The translations under genes were made by a program, and so were the position numbers. Below the pieces are notes generated by a model. That model ran no database searches. It was not told where the DNA came from and saw nothing but the letters and a program-made list of their open reading frames with translations. Shown here one piece after another: positions 20,975-30,716 of a DNA stretch of 64,000 nt; position 1 is the first letter of the stretch; each line of letters begins with the position of its first letter. Source of the stretch: Celeribacter sp. PS-C1 (lineage in GTDB: Bacteria > Pseudomonadota > Alphaproteobacteria > Rhodobacterales > Rhodobacteraceae); NCBI RefSeq assembly GCF_019429625.1, contig NZ_JAHXRW010000005.1:1-64000 (forward strand), written 5' to 3'.

Positions 20975-22378
20975 ATGTTAGGCCGCTTCTACACAAAGAA
21001 AAATGTCGAGACGCCAGAGGGCGCAGAGACGCCTTCGACGTTGCAGGAGAAACCTTCCGTCGAGAAACCTTCGGCGCATGCGAAACCGGCGCAGACGGAG
21101 TTGCGTGATTTCGTCAACGAACGTGTTGAATTGCACCGTTTCCTGATCGACAAGATCAACCTTTCGATCCTCGACACGATGGAAGAGGACGAGTTGCACG
21201 ATGAATTGCGCCCTCTGGTGCGCGACTATGCAAAGGCCAACAGCTTTCCCCTCAGCGGCAGCGAGCTTGAAGGGCTGATCAACGACATCGCCGACGAGAT
21301 GCTCGGTCTGGGGCCGCTCGAGCCGCTTTTGGACGATGACAGCATCGCCGATATTCTTGTCGTCGGTTCCGGCAGCGTCTTCATTGAACGCGGCGGGGTT
21401 TTGGAAAAAACGAATGTGCGCTTCAAGGATGAAGACCACCTGATGCGCATCATCAACAAGGTGGTCGCCTCCGTCGGGCGTCGCGTTGACGAAAGCTCTC
21501 CGCTGGTGGATGCCCGTCTGCAGGACGGCTCACGTGTCAACGTCGCGATCCGGCCTGTCGCCGTGGACGGGCCGCAAGTCTCGATCCGGAAATTTGCCAA
21601 GCGTCCCTATTCTCTCGACAAACTCGTCGAGAACAAAGCCCTGTCCCAAGGCATGGCTGATCTCTTGGCGGCCTGTGCCGAGGCCAAGATCTCAATGATC
21701 ATTTCGGGCGGCACGGGGTCGGGGAAAACGACAATGCTCAACGCCTTGTCTTCCTACATTCCGTTTCAGGAACGTCTGGTCACGATTGAGGACGCGGCAG
21801 AGCTTCAGCTTCAGCAGCCCCATGTCGTGCGTCTCGAAACTCGCCCGCCGACGGTCGATGGCCGGCATGAGATCATGCAGCGCGATCTCGTCAAAAACGC
21901 CCTGCGGATGCGCCCTGACCGCATCATCGTCGGCGAGGTGCGTGGCGGCGAGGCGTTTGACATGCTTCAGGCGATGAACACCGGCCACGAGGGGTCGATG
22001 TCGACGGTGCACGCCAACAGCCCTCGCGACGGGATCAGCCGGATCGAGCAAATGGTAGGTATGGCGGGGATGCCGATGTCACAAACAGCCATCCGCTCTC
22101 AGATTTCGTCGGCGGTTCAATTGATCGTCCAACTGTCGCGTTTGCGCGACGGCACGCGGCGCGTGACTTCGATTTCCGAGATTACAGGGATGGAAGGCGA
22201 CATCATCCAGCTTCAGGAACTCGCCAAATTCAAACGTCTTGGCGTGACCGACGACGGCATGATTTTGGGAGAATTCCGTCCCACGGGCATTCGCCCAACC
22301 TTTTACGAAGAGTTGGAGACGATGGGCCTCAATCTTCCGAGCGAAACCTTTGATCCATCCAAGGCGACACCTGCATGA
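20975..22378 (+). CDS. cpaF: Tad pilus assembly ATPase CpaF (TadA)
   Basis: A 467-aa secretion ATPase that powers Flp pilus extension and retraction. After a variable N-terminus come the N-domain ([21 protein letters not shown]), Walker [11 protein letters not shown] (residues 244-253), the Asp box ([11 protein letters not shown]), Walker B ([17 protein letters not shown]) and the His box ([13 protein letters not shown]). All motifs look intact. GGGG precedes the ATG. It overlaps tadB by 4 bases. It works at the cytoplasmic face with the TadB/TadC platform. Confidence 0.96.
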
Positions 22379-24321: not shown

Positions 24322-25599
24322 ATGACCAAATTTCATTATCCAGAGCCGCCCAAAACCGTAGAGGAGACGGGGCTTAGCATGAGTTTTCTCATCAATCTGG
24401 TCGCGAAGGTCATGTATGAGCGGGGAACGCTGACGCCGCTTTTGATTGCCGAAGAGATCAAACTGTCCAAATTGATCTGTCGCCTGCTGATTAAGGAGAT
24501 GACGCGTCTTCTGCTGGTGGAGGCGCAGGGGCTTGAGAGTGCGGATATCAAATCCGACATTCGCTACAGTCTGACGGATGCAGGTCGCAAAGTGGCAATC
24601 GAAGCCATGCTGGCCTCGCAATATGTGGGACCTGCGCCGGTGACGCTTGAAGCGTTCACCGCGCAAATTAAGGAACAGTCCATCCACACCGAAGAAATCC
24701 ATCGCGACGATTTGGTGGAAGCGTCAAAGCATTTGGTCTTGCCGAAAGGGATGATGGCACAACTCGGTCCGGCCGCCAATTCCGGGCGCTCTGTCCTTTT
24801 GTATGGCGAGCCTGGGAACGGAAAGACATCGCTCGCGCAAGCGTTGGGCGATGCGTTCAGCGATACGGTCTACTTCCCCTACGCCATGCTGGTCGGCAAT
24901 CAGATCATCAAATTTTTCGATGAAACATTGCATGAGGTGGTGGAGCAGGATCCCGAGATGCCACCACTCGATGCGCGTTGGGTGCCCTGTCGCCGCCCTG
25001 TCGTGATCGCGGGGGGCGAGTTGACGCTGCCGATGTTGGACCTTTCTTTCGACGTCACCTCACGATTTTACGAAGCGCCCATGCATTTTAAAGCGCTCTG
25101 CGGTGTGTTCGTGCTGGATGACTTCGGACGTCAGGTTTCCACTCCACAGGAGTTTCTGAACCGCTGGATCGTCCCGCTTGAAAAGGGGTTTGATATTCTC
25201 TCGCTGCACACCGGGCGCAAGTTCATGGTGCCCTTCGATCAGTTGGTGGTTTTCTCTTCAAACATGTTCCCCGAAGAACTTGGGGACGGGGCCTCTCTGC
25301 GGCGCATCTATTTCAAGATTTACGTACCCTGTCCGACCCGCGAGGATTTTCTGAAAATCTTCGAGGATGCGTGCCGCGACCTTGCTTTTGACTGGAAGCC
25401 GGATGTGGTGGGCGACTTCTTCACCAAGGAATATGAAGAGAAACAGCACATCACATCCGGCGCGCACCCGCGCTTTTTGCTGCAACATATTGATGCCTAT
25501 TGCCGATATGAGGACGTGCCGCGCGAAGTGACACCGGAATACCTTGAGATCGCGAGCCGCAATGTCACGGCGAGCAAGAGAAGGGCCGGTTCTGAATAA
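24322..25599 (+). CDS. AAA+ ATPase with N-terminal winged-helix-like region, Tad-associated
   Basis: A 425-aa cytosolic ATPase. The first 100 residues are helical and resemble a winged helix (GTLTPLLIAEEIKLSKLICR, then DIRYSLTDAGRKVAIEAML). The ATPase domain has Walker A GEPGNGKT (residues 162-169) and Walker B VFVLDDFGR (D266, D267), followed by a probable sensor 1 segment (VVFSSN) and FLKIFEDACRDL in the lid. It closes the Tad gene run, 39 bases after tadC. I do not know a named family; its place suggests a role in regulating or assembling the pilus. Confidence 0.7.
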   Translation: MTKFHYPEPPKTVEETGLSMSFLINLVAKVMYERGTLTPLLIAEEIKLSKLICRLLIKEMTRLLLVEAQGLESADIKSDIRYSLTDAGRKVAIEAMLASQYVGPAPVTLEAFTAQIKEQSIHTEEIHRDDLVEASKHLVLPKGMMAQLGPAANSGRSVLLYGEPGNGKTSLAQALGDAFSDTVYFPYAMLVGNQIIKFFDETLHEVVEQDPEMPPLDARWVPCRRPVVIAGGELTLPMLDLSFDVTSRFYEAPMHFKALCGVFVLDDFGRQVSTPQEFLNRWIVPLEKGFDILSLHTGRKFMVPFDQLVVFSSNMFPEELGDGASLRRIYFKIYVPCPTREDFLKIFEDACRDLAFDWKPDVVGDFFTKEYEEKQHITSGAHPRFLLQHIDAYCRYEDVPREVTPEYLEIASRNVTASKRRAGSE

Positions 25600-25940: not shown

Positions 25941-26588
25941 ATGAAACTCGTTTTCGGCCTCGTGTTGAGTGCCTTTGTTGCCGCGTCAGCACATGCGGCT
26001 GATTTTACTGTTCGAAGTGGCGGTCCATCGGAAAAAGAGCTTTATGCCCGTTCGACAGATGGCGCACCGGAAGGTACAGCGTTTTTCCGCCCTGTTTTGA
26101 GCGGCGTTCTCTATCGCTCTGGTTTCTCCGGCGGCGACAAAGACCGCACCGGACTGTCGTCGTCTCAGAAGACTACGCTGTGCCAGGATGGGTTCTCGAC
26201 AGCTTTCTATGCAGACTTCGGCAAGAACACATCTTATGGCGAGACTTCTTGCAGCACCGGCTCGTTGGACTATCAGTCCGCGCGTTCGTCGCGGCCGGCA
26301 AATGTCATGAAAGCGATCCACGACACGATCGTCACGCCGGAAAAAGGTCCGGTTTTGGTGCATTGTATGTGGGGCGTCCACGCCTCTGGCGCGCTGTCCG
26401 CAATGGCGCTTGTTCAGTTCTGTGGTTGGAGCGAAGACCGGGCGAAAGACTACTGGAACACCGCACGCAACGACGCGCCCTGTTCGGGCGGCTGTGACGC
26501 GTGGATTGATGCGAAGTTTGAAAACTTCTCGTTTGATCCAACGCTCGCGATTTCCGAAGAACAACGCGCAGCTATTTGTCCGAAATAA
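25941..26588 (+). CDS. secreted tyrosine/dual-specificity phosphatase-like protein, signature Arg missing
   Basis: A 215-aa exported protein: MKLVFGLVLSAFVAASAHAA is a Sec signal peptide. The fold of a dual-specificity phosphatase is suggested by VLYRSGFSGG near residue 57 and by GPVLVHCMWGVHASGALSAM, which fits the P-loop HC-x5-R-S/T except that the arginine is alanine (H141, C142, A148, S149). Loss of this phosphate-binding arginine usually abolishes activity, so it may be a pseudophosphatase or use another chemistry. Further cysteines (C81, C104, FCGW, PCSGGC, ICPK) suggest disulfides. ATG 25941 was chosen for its signal peptide. First gene of a five-gene cluster. Confidence 0.6.
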   Translation: MKLVFGLVLSAFVAASAHAADFTVRSGGPSEKELYARSTDGAPEGTAFFRPVLSGVLYRSGFSGGDKDRTGLSSSQKTTLCQDGFSTAFYADFGKNTSYGETSCSTGSLDYQSARSSRPANVMKAIHDTIVTPEKGPVLVHCMWGVHASGALSAMALVQFCGWSEDRAKDYWNTARNDAPCSGGCDAWIDAKFENFSFDPTLAISEEQRAAICPK

Positions 26589-26603
26589 GAGAGACGCCCG
26601 ATT

Positions 26604-28040
26604 ATGACACACGCCAAGGCCCTTCTGAGTTCAACCTTTCTGCTGCTTTCCTCCATGACCGCTCAGGCCTCGGACGCCGTGATCGGTGCCGAGATGACCT
26701 TCACGAGCCCAAACGGCCTTATGGAACGATGCGTGCGGATCGCATCGCTTCCCGGCGCGAAGTATTCAAAGGACGATCTGAAAGAAGAAGAGGCCTTTTG
26801 TGAGATCGACCTCTATCACACGAATGTTGCGCTTTGTCCGAAAACCTGGAGCACGAGCCCCGGCATGATGGTCTATGACATCAGCGAAGGGCCCTACGCG
26901 GGCGCGCGCGACCGTTTCCACCGAGATGCCTGCCGGGAGGGCAAGTCGGCGAGCGCTCAGGCCAAGGATGCGCTCGCGAAATTCAAAGTGACGATGAATG
27001 CCGAGGGCACCAGCGGCACATTTTCGACCGCGCCGCTGCTCTATTACCATCTGTCGCGCTATTTCGACATGACGGTGAAGGTCCCGGTGGCGGTTTGGCG
27101 CAGTATGGATGCCGCGGAACAGTCCAAAGAAGTGGCGCGCCCGGGGCTGTCGCTTTCTGGGAACACGGGTCGGATGAACCACGAAGGGTGGCGGCATCTC
27201 GTGAACGCGGAGCAAAATCCGTCGACCTATTCGCCAACGGATGAGCTCTTTACCTCTGACCGGACACAAATTTACGGCGTGCTTCTCACCAGCCCCGGTC
27301 ATCGCTATGGGTCAGAGGTCAACGGCACACGGAAATCCGGCTGGGGCAAAGGTCAGAATTTTGACTTTCAAGAAACCCCCGCCTTTTTGGCGCTGCGCTC
27401 AATGCTTCCACTGGAACAGGCGATTGCTCATGGTCTGAGCGAGGCCAGAAAAGATAGCCAGATCAATCGCGATTTGGGGTCTGACGTCTCTGCGCATCAG
27501 GTTGCCTATTGGATGCGCGAAGTGTCTGAAATTGTTCTGTTGGACTTTATTTTCAGCCAACAGGACCGGATCGGGAATATTGATTTCACGCCCTATTACT
27601 ATTGGGTGGAAGAGGGTGAGCTGAAACATAAGAAAGCCAACCATCACGAGCCCGCTGATGGCACTGTTCCATCCGAGGCGATCCTGATCCGTCGCACGAA
27701 CCTCAACGACAACGACGCTGCCGGGCGTGTGGCCTATGCCAACTTCGCGAAATCGACCCAGATGCTGGAGAAAATCCGACATTTCGATGCGGACATTTAT
27801 CGACGTCTGATCGCGTTGAATGCTGATCTCACGGCGCAGGGCGAGATCTATCAGTGGCTGGCGTCCAGTCTTGGTATGACGGAGCGGCAGGTGAGCCAAG
27901 TCGTCAAGAATACTGCGCTTGCGACCGATATTTTGCGCAACAGCTGCGAGCGCGGCGAGCTGATCTTTGATCTTCACCCGAAGCGTTTCTTTGAAACCGG
28001 TCAGGTTGTCGCCGAACAGGTTTCTTGTGATGGTGCGTAA
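26604..28040 (+). CDS. secreted kinase-like protein (weak resemblance to Fam20C/HipA/CotH folds)
   Basis: A 478-aa exported protein with a signal peptide (residues 1-22, ending AQAS). I do not recognise a named family. The segment VLLDFIFSQQDRIGNIDF (residues 311-328) resembles the catalytic loop of Fam20C/HipA-type kinases (LDFLIGN-x-DRHxxN), and RTNLNDNDAAG (365-374) resembles their metal-binding DNG/DFD segment. The Asp-Asn spacing is one residue short, so this is tentative. Cysteines at 43, 66, 78, 110 and near the end suggest disulfides. It lies 15 bases after the phosphatase-like gene and overlaps the phosphoesterase gene by 11 bases. Confidence 0.45.
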   Translation: MTHAKALLSSTFLLLSSMTAQASDAVIGAEMTFTSPNGLMERCVRIASLPGAKYSKDDLKEEEAFCEIDLYHTNVALCPKTWSTSPGMMVYDISEGPYAGARDRFHRDACREGKSASAQAKDALAKFKVTMNAEGTSGTFSTAPLLYYHLSRYFDMTVKVPVAVWRSMDAAEQSKEVARPGLSLSGNTGRMNHEGWRHLVNAEQNPSTYSPTDELFTSDRTQIYGVLLTSPGHRYGSEVNGTRKSGWGKGQNFDFQETPAFLALRSMLPLEQAIAHGLSEARKDSQINRDLGSDVSAHQVAYWMREVSEIVLLDFIFSQQDRIGNIDFTPYYYWVEEGELKHKKANHHEPADGTVPSEAILIRRTNLNDNDAAGRVAYANFAKSTQMLEKIRHFDADIYRRLIALNADLTAQGEIYQWLASSLGMTERQVSQVVKNTALATDILRNSCERGELIFDLHPKRFFETGQVVAEQVSCDGA

Positions 28041-28995
28041 ACTTCTGGCGATCGTCTCCCTGATCCTATGCGCGAGTGCTGGGGCGGCGGACGGTCTGAA
28101 AGTTGTGGTGATCTCTGACTTGAATGGTAGCTATGGCTCCGTTGATTATTCCTCATCGGTCACACGCGCTGTGAGCCGGATCGTTGAAATGAAACCCGAC
28201 CTTGTGATCTCCACCGGGGATATGGTGGCGGGGCAACGCAAGCCGCATCTGAGTGAACGCGAAGTCCGCGCCATGTGGGCGGGCTTTCATCAGGCGGTGA
28301 CGGATCCGCTGACGGCTGCGCAGATTCCTTTGGCGGTGACGCCCGGCAATCATGATGGATCGGCGTACGGCGGGTTTGAGCTTGAGCGGGCGATCTACGG
28401 CGAGACCTGGATCGCGCATCAACCGGATTTGGACTTTGTCAAAGGGTCCAACTACCCGTTTTCTTATGCGTTCGATCTTGGAGGGGTGCGCTTTGCTTCC
28501 GTGGATGTCACGACGGTCGGCCCTCTCTCTGGGGAGCAAATGGGTTGGGTCAGTGACATCATGTCGGGCACGCCGGAGCGTCGCGTTGTCTTCAGCCACT
28601 TGCCCCTGTGGCCCTTTGCTGTTGGGCGCGAAACAGAGATCATCGGCGATCCGGTTTTCGAAGCCCTGCTGTCAAAGCTGGATGTGGATCTGCACCTTTC
28701 CGGCCACCATCATGCCTTCTATCCGGGCGCGGTTGGCGATCTCGGAGTGATTTCTCAGGCCTGTCTGGGCAGCGGAAAAAGAGCCCTCATCGGCGCCGAG
28801 AGCGAACGCTTTCAGGCGATTACTCTTCTTGAGTTCTCCGAGGACGGCCACATCGAGGTCAGTGCTTTTAAGGCGCCGGATTATTCAGAACGCGTCGAGA
28901 TTTCGGGCCTTCCGCACACGTTGGAAACATCGCATCGTAGAATTGAGCGGCTGGACCATGTGTCTCTGCCGCATGTGACTTGGAAACAGGACTAG
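28030..28995 (+). CDS. secreted calcineurin-like metallophosphoesterase
   Basis: A 321-aa exported enzyme. MVRKLLAIVSLILCASAGAA is a signal peptide. Metal-site motifs of calcineurin-like phosphoesterases follow in order: VISDLNGSYG (D30, with N32 where the family usually has His), STGDMVAG (D64), TPGNHDG (N107, H108), VVFSHLPLW and LSGHHHAFYPG. Activity as a periplasmic phosphomonoesterase or diesterase is likely. The start ATG 28030 overlaps the previous gene by 11 bases and yields a clean signal peptide; the longer frame start does not. Confidence 0.85.
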   Translation: MVRKLLAIVSLILCASAGAADGLKVVVISDLNGSYGSVDYSSSVTRAVSRIVEMKPDLVISTGDMVAGQRKPHLSEREVRAMWAGFHQAVTDPLTAAQIPLAVTPGNHDGSAYGGFELERAIYGETWIAHQPDLDFVKGSNYPFSYAFDLGGVRFASVDVTTVGPLSGEQMGWVSDIMSGTPERRVVFSHLPLWPFAVGRETEIIGDPVFEALLSKLDVDLHLSGHHHAFYPGAVGDLGVISQACLGSGKRALIGAESERFQAITLLEFSEDGHIEVSAFKAPDYSERVEISGLPHTLETSHRRIERLDHVSLPHVTWKQD

Positions 28996-29020
28996 GCCGT
29001 TTGCGTGCCTGATAGAGAGA

Positions 29021-29824
29021 ATGCAAACCATGAACCGTAAAGCCAACACATGGCGCTTTCAGAGCATATACTTCTTTGCTTTTCTGGGGGTGTTGGGGGC
29101 CCTTGTGGTCGTCGCACCGGCACTGGCCCAGAGCCCGGATGGCCCGCTTGTTATTCCTTCGGAGATCGACGTGCGCGCCCGCGGTTGGAGCCAGTTGACG
29201 AATTGGAAAGAGGTGCTTGAGTTCGCGCTTGCCGTTGTGGAGACGACAGTGTTCACGGCGCTTCTCGCCTTTCACCCGGCCAATCGCGATGTCCCGTCAA
29301 AGGTGTTGGGCGGAGAGCTTCAAAAGGGCATGTTTCTCTTTGCTCTGATCGGGATGCTGACCGGCTTTCTTGTCATGCACCACGGCTATCTGATCGGCTT
29401 CGTGATCTTTGGCATTGGGGGGCTGTTCCGCTTTCGGATGGAATCCAGCACGATTGCGGACACGGGCCAACTGGTCGTGACATCCTTGGCCGGCCTTGCG
29501 GTGGGGCTGGACCTCCCGGTCATGGCGATGATCGGGACTATTGCGGCGTGGTTTTTGCTTCAGATTTTTGGCAAGACAAAGTTGTTCGGACTGGAAGTAA
29601 AATTCGAGGAAAAGAAAAACTCTCTCGGTTTGCTGCGTGACCTGCCAAAGATGCTTGAGGAGAAGGGGTTCTCGGTTGTCACTGTGACTAAGGCAAAGTT
29701 CAAGCCAACGGTGCGCTACACGCTATCTTCGCGCAAACCCGGTGCCCAAAACCTTCTGATTGAAGAAATGACAGAGATGCAGGCCACCGGCAAAAGCGGC
29801 GTTGTCGATTGGCACGTCGATTAA
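29021..29824 (+). CDS. DUF4956-like membrane protein
   Basis: A 267-aa protein: an N-terminal helix or signal (YFFAFLGVLGALVVVAPALA), a periplasmic stretch, then three or four membrane helices (FALAVVETTVFTALLAF, GMFLFALIGMLTGFLVMHHG, YLIGFVIFGIGGLFRFRM, PVMAMIGTIAAWFLLQIFG) and a cytosolic C-terminal domain. GLFRFRMESSTIADTGQL is reminiscent of DUF4956 proteins, which are often encoded beside VTC-type polyphosphate polymerases and CotH kinases. Start may be ATG 29021 or ATG 29030; the latter has better spacing from AGAGAGA. Role unknown; cluster membership suggests support for the secreted partners. Confidence 0.55.
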   Translation: MQTMNRKANTWRFQSIYFFAFLGVLGALVVVAPALAQSPDGPLVIPSEIDVRARGWSQLTNWKEVLEFALAVVETTVFTALLAFHPANRDVPSKVLGGELQKGMFLFALIGMLTGFLVMHHGYLIGFVIFGIGGLFRFRMESSTIADTGQLVVTSLAGLAVGLDLPVMAMIGTIAAWFLLQIFGKTKLFGLEVKFEEKKNSLGLLRDLPKMLEEKGFSVVTVTKAKFKPTVRYTLSSRKPGAQNLLIEEMTEMQATGKSGVVDWHVD

Positions 29825-29831
29825 CGAAGTC

Positions 29832-30716
29832 ATGGCGTGTGTTCAGAGCTATATCCGATGTGCGTTGTTGTTTTTGGTCGGCGGCATCGCGTCTCCGGTT
29901 GCGTCCGAGGACGTGGGCGACCCCGTCGCGCTGGAATTTCTCGGAAGCTGGAAGATTTATGCGCATCACGAGGATTTCGAAGAACCCTCGGGCCTCGTCT
30001 TTGATCCTGAGACGGAGGAATTTCTCGTCATCAGCGACAACACCGATCGCTTCTATAGCCTCTCAGCGAGCGGAGAGAGGGTGAAGGATATCGGTGTAAT
30101 CGATCATCTCGAAGATCCGGAAGGCGTGACTTTGGATGTGCAACGTGGACGGTTGCTTGTGCTCTCCGAGGATCAGGCCGCCATCTATGTGATCCCGCGC
30201 GACACGCCCGAAAATGTCGAAAAATACGCGCTGAAAAAGGTGATTGAGAACGCATCGGACGAGGTGCGGGATTTGCTGGAGGGACGTTTCTCGCCGGAAG
30301 GCATTACCATTGACGCGACCACTGGGGCCGTGCTCCTTGTCAATGAGCGCAGCCCCCGCGTGCTCGTTGAACTGTCTCCTGACCTCACTGACATTCTATC
30401 GGTCGAGCCGCTCTCGGCGGAGAATGGATTTGTTGTGGAGAGGGTGAAAGAGCATCATCTGGATGTTTCTGGACTCGATTACGACGCGGGCCGGAACGCG
30501 CTCTGGATCGTAAGTGACACGGGTGAGAGCGCGTTTTTCTGGAGGCGCGGGCAGGGGCCTGCTCAGCGCTTCGAGCTTCTTTGGAAGGATGATGGAGGGG
30601 CGCTGAGGCGGATCGAGAACGCCGAAGGGATTGCGCTCAACCCCGCGGGTGACAGGCTTTTCATCATCAACGACAACGACAAAAAATCGCGTCTGTTTGT
30701 CTATGCTGTCCACTAG
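29832..30716 (+). CDS. exported SdiA-regulated/YjiK-like beta-propeller protein
   Basis: A 294-aa exported protein: YIRCALLFLVGGIASPVASE is a signal peptide. Repeated strands such as EPSGLVFDPETEEFLVISDN, HLEDPEGVTLDVQRGRLLVL, FSPEGITIDATTGAVLLVNE and NAEGIALNPAGDRLFIINDN form a beta-propeller like the SdiA-regulated (YjiK) and phytase-like esterase families, which share acidic D-PEG loops. It may bind or hydrolyse a phosphorylated ligand with calcium, but this is not established. ATG 29832 is 8 bases after the DUF4956-like stop. It is the last gene of the cassette. Confidence 0.65.
   Translation: MACVQSYIRCALLFLVGGIASPVASEDVGDPVALEFLGSWKIYAHHEDFEEPSGLVFDPETEEFLVISDNTDRFYSLSASGERVKDIGVIDHLEDPEGVTLDVQRGRLLVLSEDQAAIYVIPRDTPENVEKYALKKVIENASDEVRDLLEGRFSPEGITIDATTGAVLLVNERSPRVLVELSPDLTDILSVEPLSAENGFVVERVKEHHLDVSGLDYDAGRNALWIVSDTGESAFFWRRGQGPAQRFELLWKDDGGALRRIENAEGIALNPAGDRLFIINDNDKKSRLFVYAVH

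Follow-up and report, generated by a model that had tools for sequence, protein, structure and literature searches.

Kinases acting on secreted proteins and glycans have been studied best in the animal secretory pathway, to which Fam20A, Fam20B, and Fam20C belong. Fam20 is described in one review as conserved across the animal kingdom (PMC7948968). In Fam20, an alphaC acid is described as paired with a lysine, and an aspartate as the catalytic base (PMC5865150); in Fam20C, Lys271 and Asp478 are assigned to nucleotide and metal (PMC5413348). Near relatives of this group have already been reported in bacteria, namely Legionella kinase families that are described as clustering with the FAM20/CotH group (PMC9758233) and CotH, which is reported to resemble Fam20C (PMC12189002). 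In the Gram-positive pel loci, DUF4956 genes are described beside CotH and a polyphosphate polymerase (PMC7112168). Among exported phosphatases, TpbA of Pseudomonas aeruginosa is a periplasmic dual-specificity phosphatase (DUSP) with the P-loop HCKHGNNR, in which Arg138 is reported to bind phosphate (PMC4409338). Here we describe a cassette of five genes, ptp, kin, mpe, duf, and sdi, in a 64,000-nucleotide stretch of Celeribacter sp. PS-C1 (contig NZ_JAHXRW010000005.1), hereafter the window. A literature search of open-licence papers, judged by its listings, returned no description of this gene set. The genes are as follows:

ptp, 25941..26588, + strand: exported protein with a predicted dual-specificity-phosphatase fold; P-loop HCMWGVHASG, no CX5R arginine
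kin, 26604..28040, + strand: exported protein with a predicted Fam20-like kinase fold; no Pfam family
mpe, 28030..28995, + strand: exported calcineurin-like metallophosphoesterase; first motif DLN; Metallophos
duf, 29021..29824, + strand: polytopic membrane protein, remotely DUF4956/MgtC-like
sdi, 29832..30716, + strand: exported SdiA-regulated/phytase-like beta-propeller; ten acidic residues invariant

The five genes are a real, conserved exported module. With a confidence a little short of even, we read this cassette as an exported accessory envelope-phosphate system of Rhodobacteraceae, built around a Fam20-fold kin and a divergent or pseudo-phosphatase ptp. All five open reading frames (ORFs) are intact on the + strand, and the layout given in the first-pass annotation, same-strand genes with small gaps or overlaps, is exactly what is seen: the spacings are 15 bases for ptp-kin, -11 for kin-mpe, 25 for mpe-duf, and 7 for duf-sdi, with the mpe ATG at 28030 lying inside the 3' end of kin. 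The four signal peptides and one polytopic protein described there also reappear. The N-termini of ptp, kin, mpe, and sdi are signal-peptide-like by a crude rule, used in place of SignalP, that asks for a hydrophobic stretch and a small-x-small site; a hydropathy run, made on the window protein only, shows several hydrophobic stretches in duf. Among the locus proteins, whose starts were picked by script near the start of the window protein, the rule marks 33/33 ptp, 34/35 kin, 32/32 mpe, and 22/24 sdi, the sole kin exception being a remnant (L025); it also marks 31/31 duf proteins.

The first-pass annotation had proposed a neighborhood survey, and homologues of the genes do co-occur elsewhere as a recurring module. 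Among 198 genomes of the family, kin was found in 13 at E <= 0.001 (11 strong matches, one of 41% identity in G197, and a fragment in G013), ptp in 12 (the same 11 as the strong kin matches plus a weak match in G077), and duf in 10 at E <= 1e-5, all of them within the 11 and adjoining kin and ptp. The genome-contig search gave 25 records, two of which duplicate the contigs of G027 and G024; non-duplicate below means that each contig is counted once, with close species remaining. The kin orthologues share 58-75% identity, apart from a distant one at 40%, and their frames are intact in records from many genera; the cassette is therefore more than a chance assembly. In-frame stops in four mpe orthologues turned out to be ordinary C-terminal stops over-read by tblastn. 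The alignments used here contain, with the window, 33 rows for kin (32 of 37 locus rows, excluding the duplicates L027 and L035, the fragment L025, and L047 and L048, which are near L043), 23 for ptp (22 of 35, picked for spread, with the motif count covering all 33 non-duplicate loci), 29 for duf (28 of 33), 30 for mpe (29 of 35), and 23 for sdi (22 of 25).

The order ptp-kin-mpe is kept in 33 of the 34 non-duplicate loci whose kin is intact, a count without the remnant L025 and without two records that are duplicates; the exception, L024, has the 40% identical kin without the other four genes. Around this core the remaining genes move. The duf gene follows it in 14 of the 33 loci (sdi next in 12), precedes it in 12 (11 as duf-sdi and one without sdi), and is inverted after it in five; no duf was found in L023, and the contig of L033 ends within mpe. 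On a quick kin tree these arrangement labels need five changes, of which well-supported branches alone force one to two per group. The genes thus remain together through some rearrangement, and a shared function is therefore favored. They might instead be passengers held by horizontal transfer with no single shared function, to which we give a low probability. The patchy occurrence (strong matches in 11 of 198 genomes) fits such passengers, as do the presence in Marivita geojedonensis DPG-138 of two cassettes on separate contigs (L037 and L049, one without a detected sdi) and the different arrangements in two Shimia-labelled records (L044 and L050), but the cohesion of the genes while duf and sdi move and the retention of active-site motifs argue against them. 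An apparent decayed remnant also occurs, at L025:7930-8979 (G013), where a kin fragment with stops lies beside an mpe-like fragment; an ORF that looks transposase-like by eye is nearby.

The kinase-like protein of the first-pass annotation is kin, whose fold could have proved unrelated and is instead predicted to be of Fam20 type. The AlphaFold2 model, computed on the 33 aligned orthologues (pLDDT 87.6, pTM 0.88), has a predicted kinase-like fold with Fam20 as the nearest. In Foldseek, Fam20 chains fill the first 21 rows (best E 1.5e-4, probability 1.00), and VIA-align gives Z 17.4 for hydra Fam20 (285 residues aligned, 4.1 A), 14.7-16.4 for Fam20C-type chains, about 14 (14.0) for PI4KII, about 13 for Fam20A, 10.9 for HipT, and 8.7 for HipA. 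As in Fam20A/B/C, the predicted fold, which spans residues 52-460, is accompanied by a DR catalytic loop, a DN metal motif, a signal peptide, and conserved cysteines, five of which are invariant in the family alignment. Unlike these animal kinases, kin is bacterial, is accompanied by a phosphatase-fold gene, and has neither a sequence match to the Fam20C Pfam family or PDB Fam20 chains nor the alphaC acids. The Legionella families are likewise bacterial, kinase-like, and near Fam20/CotH; they differ in being effector candidates and are set beside kin by their published description only.

Residue equivalences between kin and Fam20 come from an ungapped motif alignment, not a superposition. Lys80, Lys128, Asp321-Arg322, Gly324-Asn325, and Asp369-Asn370-Asp371 are invariant in 33/33 rows and in the homologue of G674, a genome of the same class outside the family; of these, the putative catalytic Asp321 and metal-binding Asp369 pair by motif with the Fam20 chains. 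Where those chains have IFDFL[IM]GN-x-DRHHYE and HLDN[GA] (five shown of the six that matched), kin has LLDFIFSQQDRIGNID and LNDND at the corresponding places. The motifs CPKxxSTxP, YYHxSR (in the predicted alphaC), and Q[QK]DRxGNI occur in 34/35 kin rows, missing in the remnant L025, and [ND]DND in 33/35, missing in L025 and in L030 (SDND). By these residues, kin holds candidates for the phosphate-binding lysine, the base, and the metal aspartate.

At the level of family searches, the window kin has no meaningful Pfam match, and 0/33 members match either the Fam20C profile PF06702 at E <= 1 or any kinase Pfam family. A kin profile run against the PDB found no Fam20 chain. The Fam20C Pfam model itself has no match in the window's own genome at E <= 0.001, and across the phylum it matches one of 299 genomes, under the cut-off. 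Assignment of kin by sequence to a family of Pfam, NCBIfam, PHROGs, or the PDB received no support from the searches. Profile matches to phosphorylase kinase (E 0.77-2) fall at about profile positions 401-469, away from the catalytic loop, and we regard them as chance; phmmer with the catalytic-loop region alone returned two matches, both to non-kinases (E 0.6-1.2). We do not file kin as a member of the Fam20 family; at most it works like one.

The companion ptp had been read as a tyrosine phosphatase, which stands for the predicted fold and not for the active site, where the signature arginine is gone. The model (pLDDT 87.4) has a predicted DUSP fold; the top Foldseek match is TpbA (4r0s; E 2.2e-5, TM about 0.4), and VIA gives Z 12.1-12.6 for DUSP23, PFA-DSP1, and SIW14, all similar in fold to ptp, which differs in having no CX5R. 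In the window, the Pfam PTP match is below the cut-off. TpbA is an exported DUSP, and ptp appears to be exported too; TpbA has Arg in its P-loop, whereas ptp has HCMWGVH[AS]. The motif HCMWGVH[AS]SG is present in all 33 non-duplicate locus proteins and in the window. Cys142 and His147 are invariant in the aligned rows, as are six further cysteines in the family alignment, and D92 is kept in 23/23 rows and not in G674. The invariant cysteines of ptp and kin would be in keeping with an oxidising compartment. Because the signature arginine is missing, ordinary PTP activity is doubtful. Its substitution is not local decay, since the same kind of change is found outside the family in G674, where the P-loop reads HCWYGLHASG.

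In G674, ptp and kin are neighbors (37% and 28% identical, respectively). The class-wide kin search returned one of 385 genomes, the window's own; the phylum-wide search two of 299, the window's own and G674; the search in the order of G674 one of 249, G674 itself; and the plasmid search no match. Because ptp-kin was the part found in this one out-of-family genome, we regard the pair as the probable functional heart of the cassette. Beside the G674 pair, at L077:5176-6339, lies an exported-looking 387-aa protein with the motifs EIAAFNLSAILGY and QQWDRYSGGN...TDNGG, Fam20-like by eye; neither Pfam nor the PDB gives a match at E <= 1. It is adjoined by a protein whose His_Phos_1 match falls just short of the cut-off. 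A further kin homologue, at L076:2806-3513 on an IMG/VR contig, shares 46% identity over residues 28-196; the gene next to it matches families of phage major head proteins (PHROG 10, E 6.6e-32), and the homologue may be host flank or phage cargo.

The remaining three genes agree largely with what the first-pass annotation had named them. For mpe, a calcineurin-like phosphoesterase, the window protein scores 61.5 bits against Metallophos (PF00149; cut-off 21.5; E 1.9e-16), and 30/30 members match at E <= 1e-5. D30, D64, N107-H108, H190, H226, and H228 are invariant in 30/30; we take these to be the usual metal-ligand positions, with a histidine presumably expected at N32, where the first motif is D-x-N. 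For sdi, the SdiA-regulated/phytase-like propeller, the window protein scores 61.6 bits against PF06977 (cut-off 21; E 9.7e-17) and is above the cut-off for Phytase-like (E 3.3e-12); 23/23 members match PF06977 at E <= 1e-5, and the Phytase-like match is likewise found in 23/23. Its ten invariant acids (23-row alignment) would, in our own reading, be two in each of five repeats. The DUF4956 label of duf holds as a weak match throughout the family, with 29/29 members at E <= 1 (best 8.8e-6) and MgtC matched in 9/29, while the window member falls below the cut-off (PF16316; 10.9 bits against 30.6).

Of known gene sets, that of CotH, polyphosphate polymerase, and DUF4956 comes closest to the cassette. 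The two share a DUF4956-like membrane protein next to a gene of Fam20/CotH-type kinase fold, and they differ in that the cassette adds ptp, mpe, and sdi and is Gram-negative and exported. The suggested polyphosphate role found no direct support, as neither CotH nor the VTC polymerase was found at E <= 0.01 in a scan of the window's own genome. The wider phospho-chemistry frame is reasonable for the cassette, with phosphate turnover being what we infer. One could also suppose phosphate scavenging, in which mpe and sdi liberate phosphate from organic phosphates, with the sugar phosphates being bound or processed by the kinase and phosphatase folds. The Metallophos and Phytase-like matches in every mpe and sdi member examined suit scavenging, but the out-of-family genome yields ptp-kin rather than mpe-sdi, and kinases are unexpected there; we consider it improbable.

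In the envelope-phosphate reading, the DUF4956-like duf would keep kin at the inner membrane, and kin is predicted to transfer phosphate to an envelope or secreted substrate, which may be a glycan or a protein by analogy with Fam20B/C and CotH. The working phosphate remover would be mpe. Having lost the phosphate-binding arginine, ptp would act together with kin, either as a regulator or a binder of the phosphate site or else as a cysteine enzyme of altered chemistry, while duf would anchor or supply the complex at the membrane and sdi would read, bind, or hydrolyse a ligand.

Several points weigh against this reading. The Foldseek TM-scores of the Fam20 rows are modest (0.37-0.42 by query length, rmsd 7-11 A), and no Fam20, CotH, or PDB kinase is convincingly found for kin by sequence. 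By the motif alignment, kin has no acid at two Fam20 alphaC positions, which are occupied by Thr139 (Thr 32, Ala 1) and Pro144 (Pro 17, Ser 14, Ala 2; n=33); Fam20A is described as a pseudokinase partly due to a Gln that replaces one alphaC acid (PMC5865150). The HCX5R signature is found in 0/33 locus ptp proteins, and the ptp of the window and of G674 are also without the arginine. In the family searches, G040 gave no duf match, and in G197 kin occurs with neither ptp nor duf; around the G674 pair, 17 kb of sequence yielded no mpe, duf, or sdi. The random-placement chances of the co-distribution (3e-18 for the kin/ptp 11-for-11 match and 5e-16 for the nesting of duf) are only indicative, since linkage and common descent partly predict them. 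Promoter and terminator scans did no better than shuffles. The weakest step, unexplained, is the source of ATP outside the cytoplasm.

Because the candidate lysine, base, and metal aspartate are kept and the alphaC acids are gone, kin would be either a kinase with another acid or a pseudokinase; an acid from elsewhere in the protein could substitute for that of alphaC. Both kin and ptp may then be pseudoenzymes, a pseudokinase-pseudophosphatase binding scaffold with mpe, and perhaps sdi, doing the sole chemistry. We judge this unlikely, though it deserves serious weight: the predicted alphaC of kin is without a conserved acid, the P-loop arginine is replaced in all the ptp proteins counted above, and D110 of ptp, which we take to be the Asp nearest the DUSP general-acid spacing, is kept in just 15/23. 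Yet both proteins keep residues without variation in the aligned rows, seemingly beyond the needs of a scaffold: Lys128, Asp321, and Asp369-Asn370 in kin, and Cys142 and His147 in ptp. The same residues can be read in a bolder way, which is doubtful, as a new alphaproteobacterial extracytoplasmic group-transfer system composed of an exported kinase of the Fam20/CotH branch with a remodelled alphaC and a DUSP-fold cysteine enzyme whose CX5R, rebuilt as HCxxGxH[AS]SG, serves a different reaction.

The first-pass annotation had also linked the cassette to the Tad pilus next door. That the cassette modifies this pilus is very improbable: the adjacency, which speaks for it, is seen in this window only, and the Tad-region proteins at 20975 (T2SSE), 23356 (T2SSF), 19255 (ParA-like), and 16379 (which we take to be the secretin) have no match at E <= 1e-5 in any of the 37 locus records, where the flanking sequence is no longer than about 9 kb and in many cases less. 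The Tad locus thus appears to adjoin the cassette by chance here. Between the Tad genes and the cassette, at 24322-25599, lies an AAA-type ATPase gene whose Pfam AAA match is just under the cut-off. Elsewhere, the cassette is flanked in 27 of the 35 non-duplicate locus records by members of a recurring set of mostly exported-looking neighbors. The set consists of 11 clusters chosen after inspection, with one member each of eight clusters scanned against Pfam, and includes an SH3-domain protein cluster (17 loci), a TAP-like hydrolase, Transgly_assoc, HGSNAT_cat, and, by eye, small lipoprotein-like proteins; example flanks are those of L016, L021, L028, and L046. None of the set occurs within window region 15001-42000, and these neighbors are not counted in the system because they are missing near the window's cassette.

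Given the bacterial FAM20/CotH-near relatives already on record, what the envelope-phosphate reading would add, if true, is a compact exported cassette in which the kinase has a partner of phosphatase fold. That the loss of the PTP arginine is itself conserved, next to a conserved cysteine, poses a sharp enzymology question. If true, the reading would also open extracytoplasmic phosphorylation to genetics and place DUF4956 in a context that can be tested.

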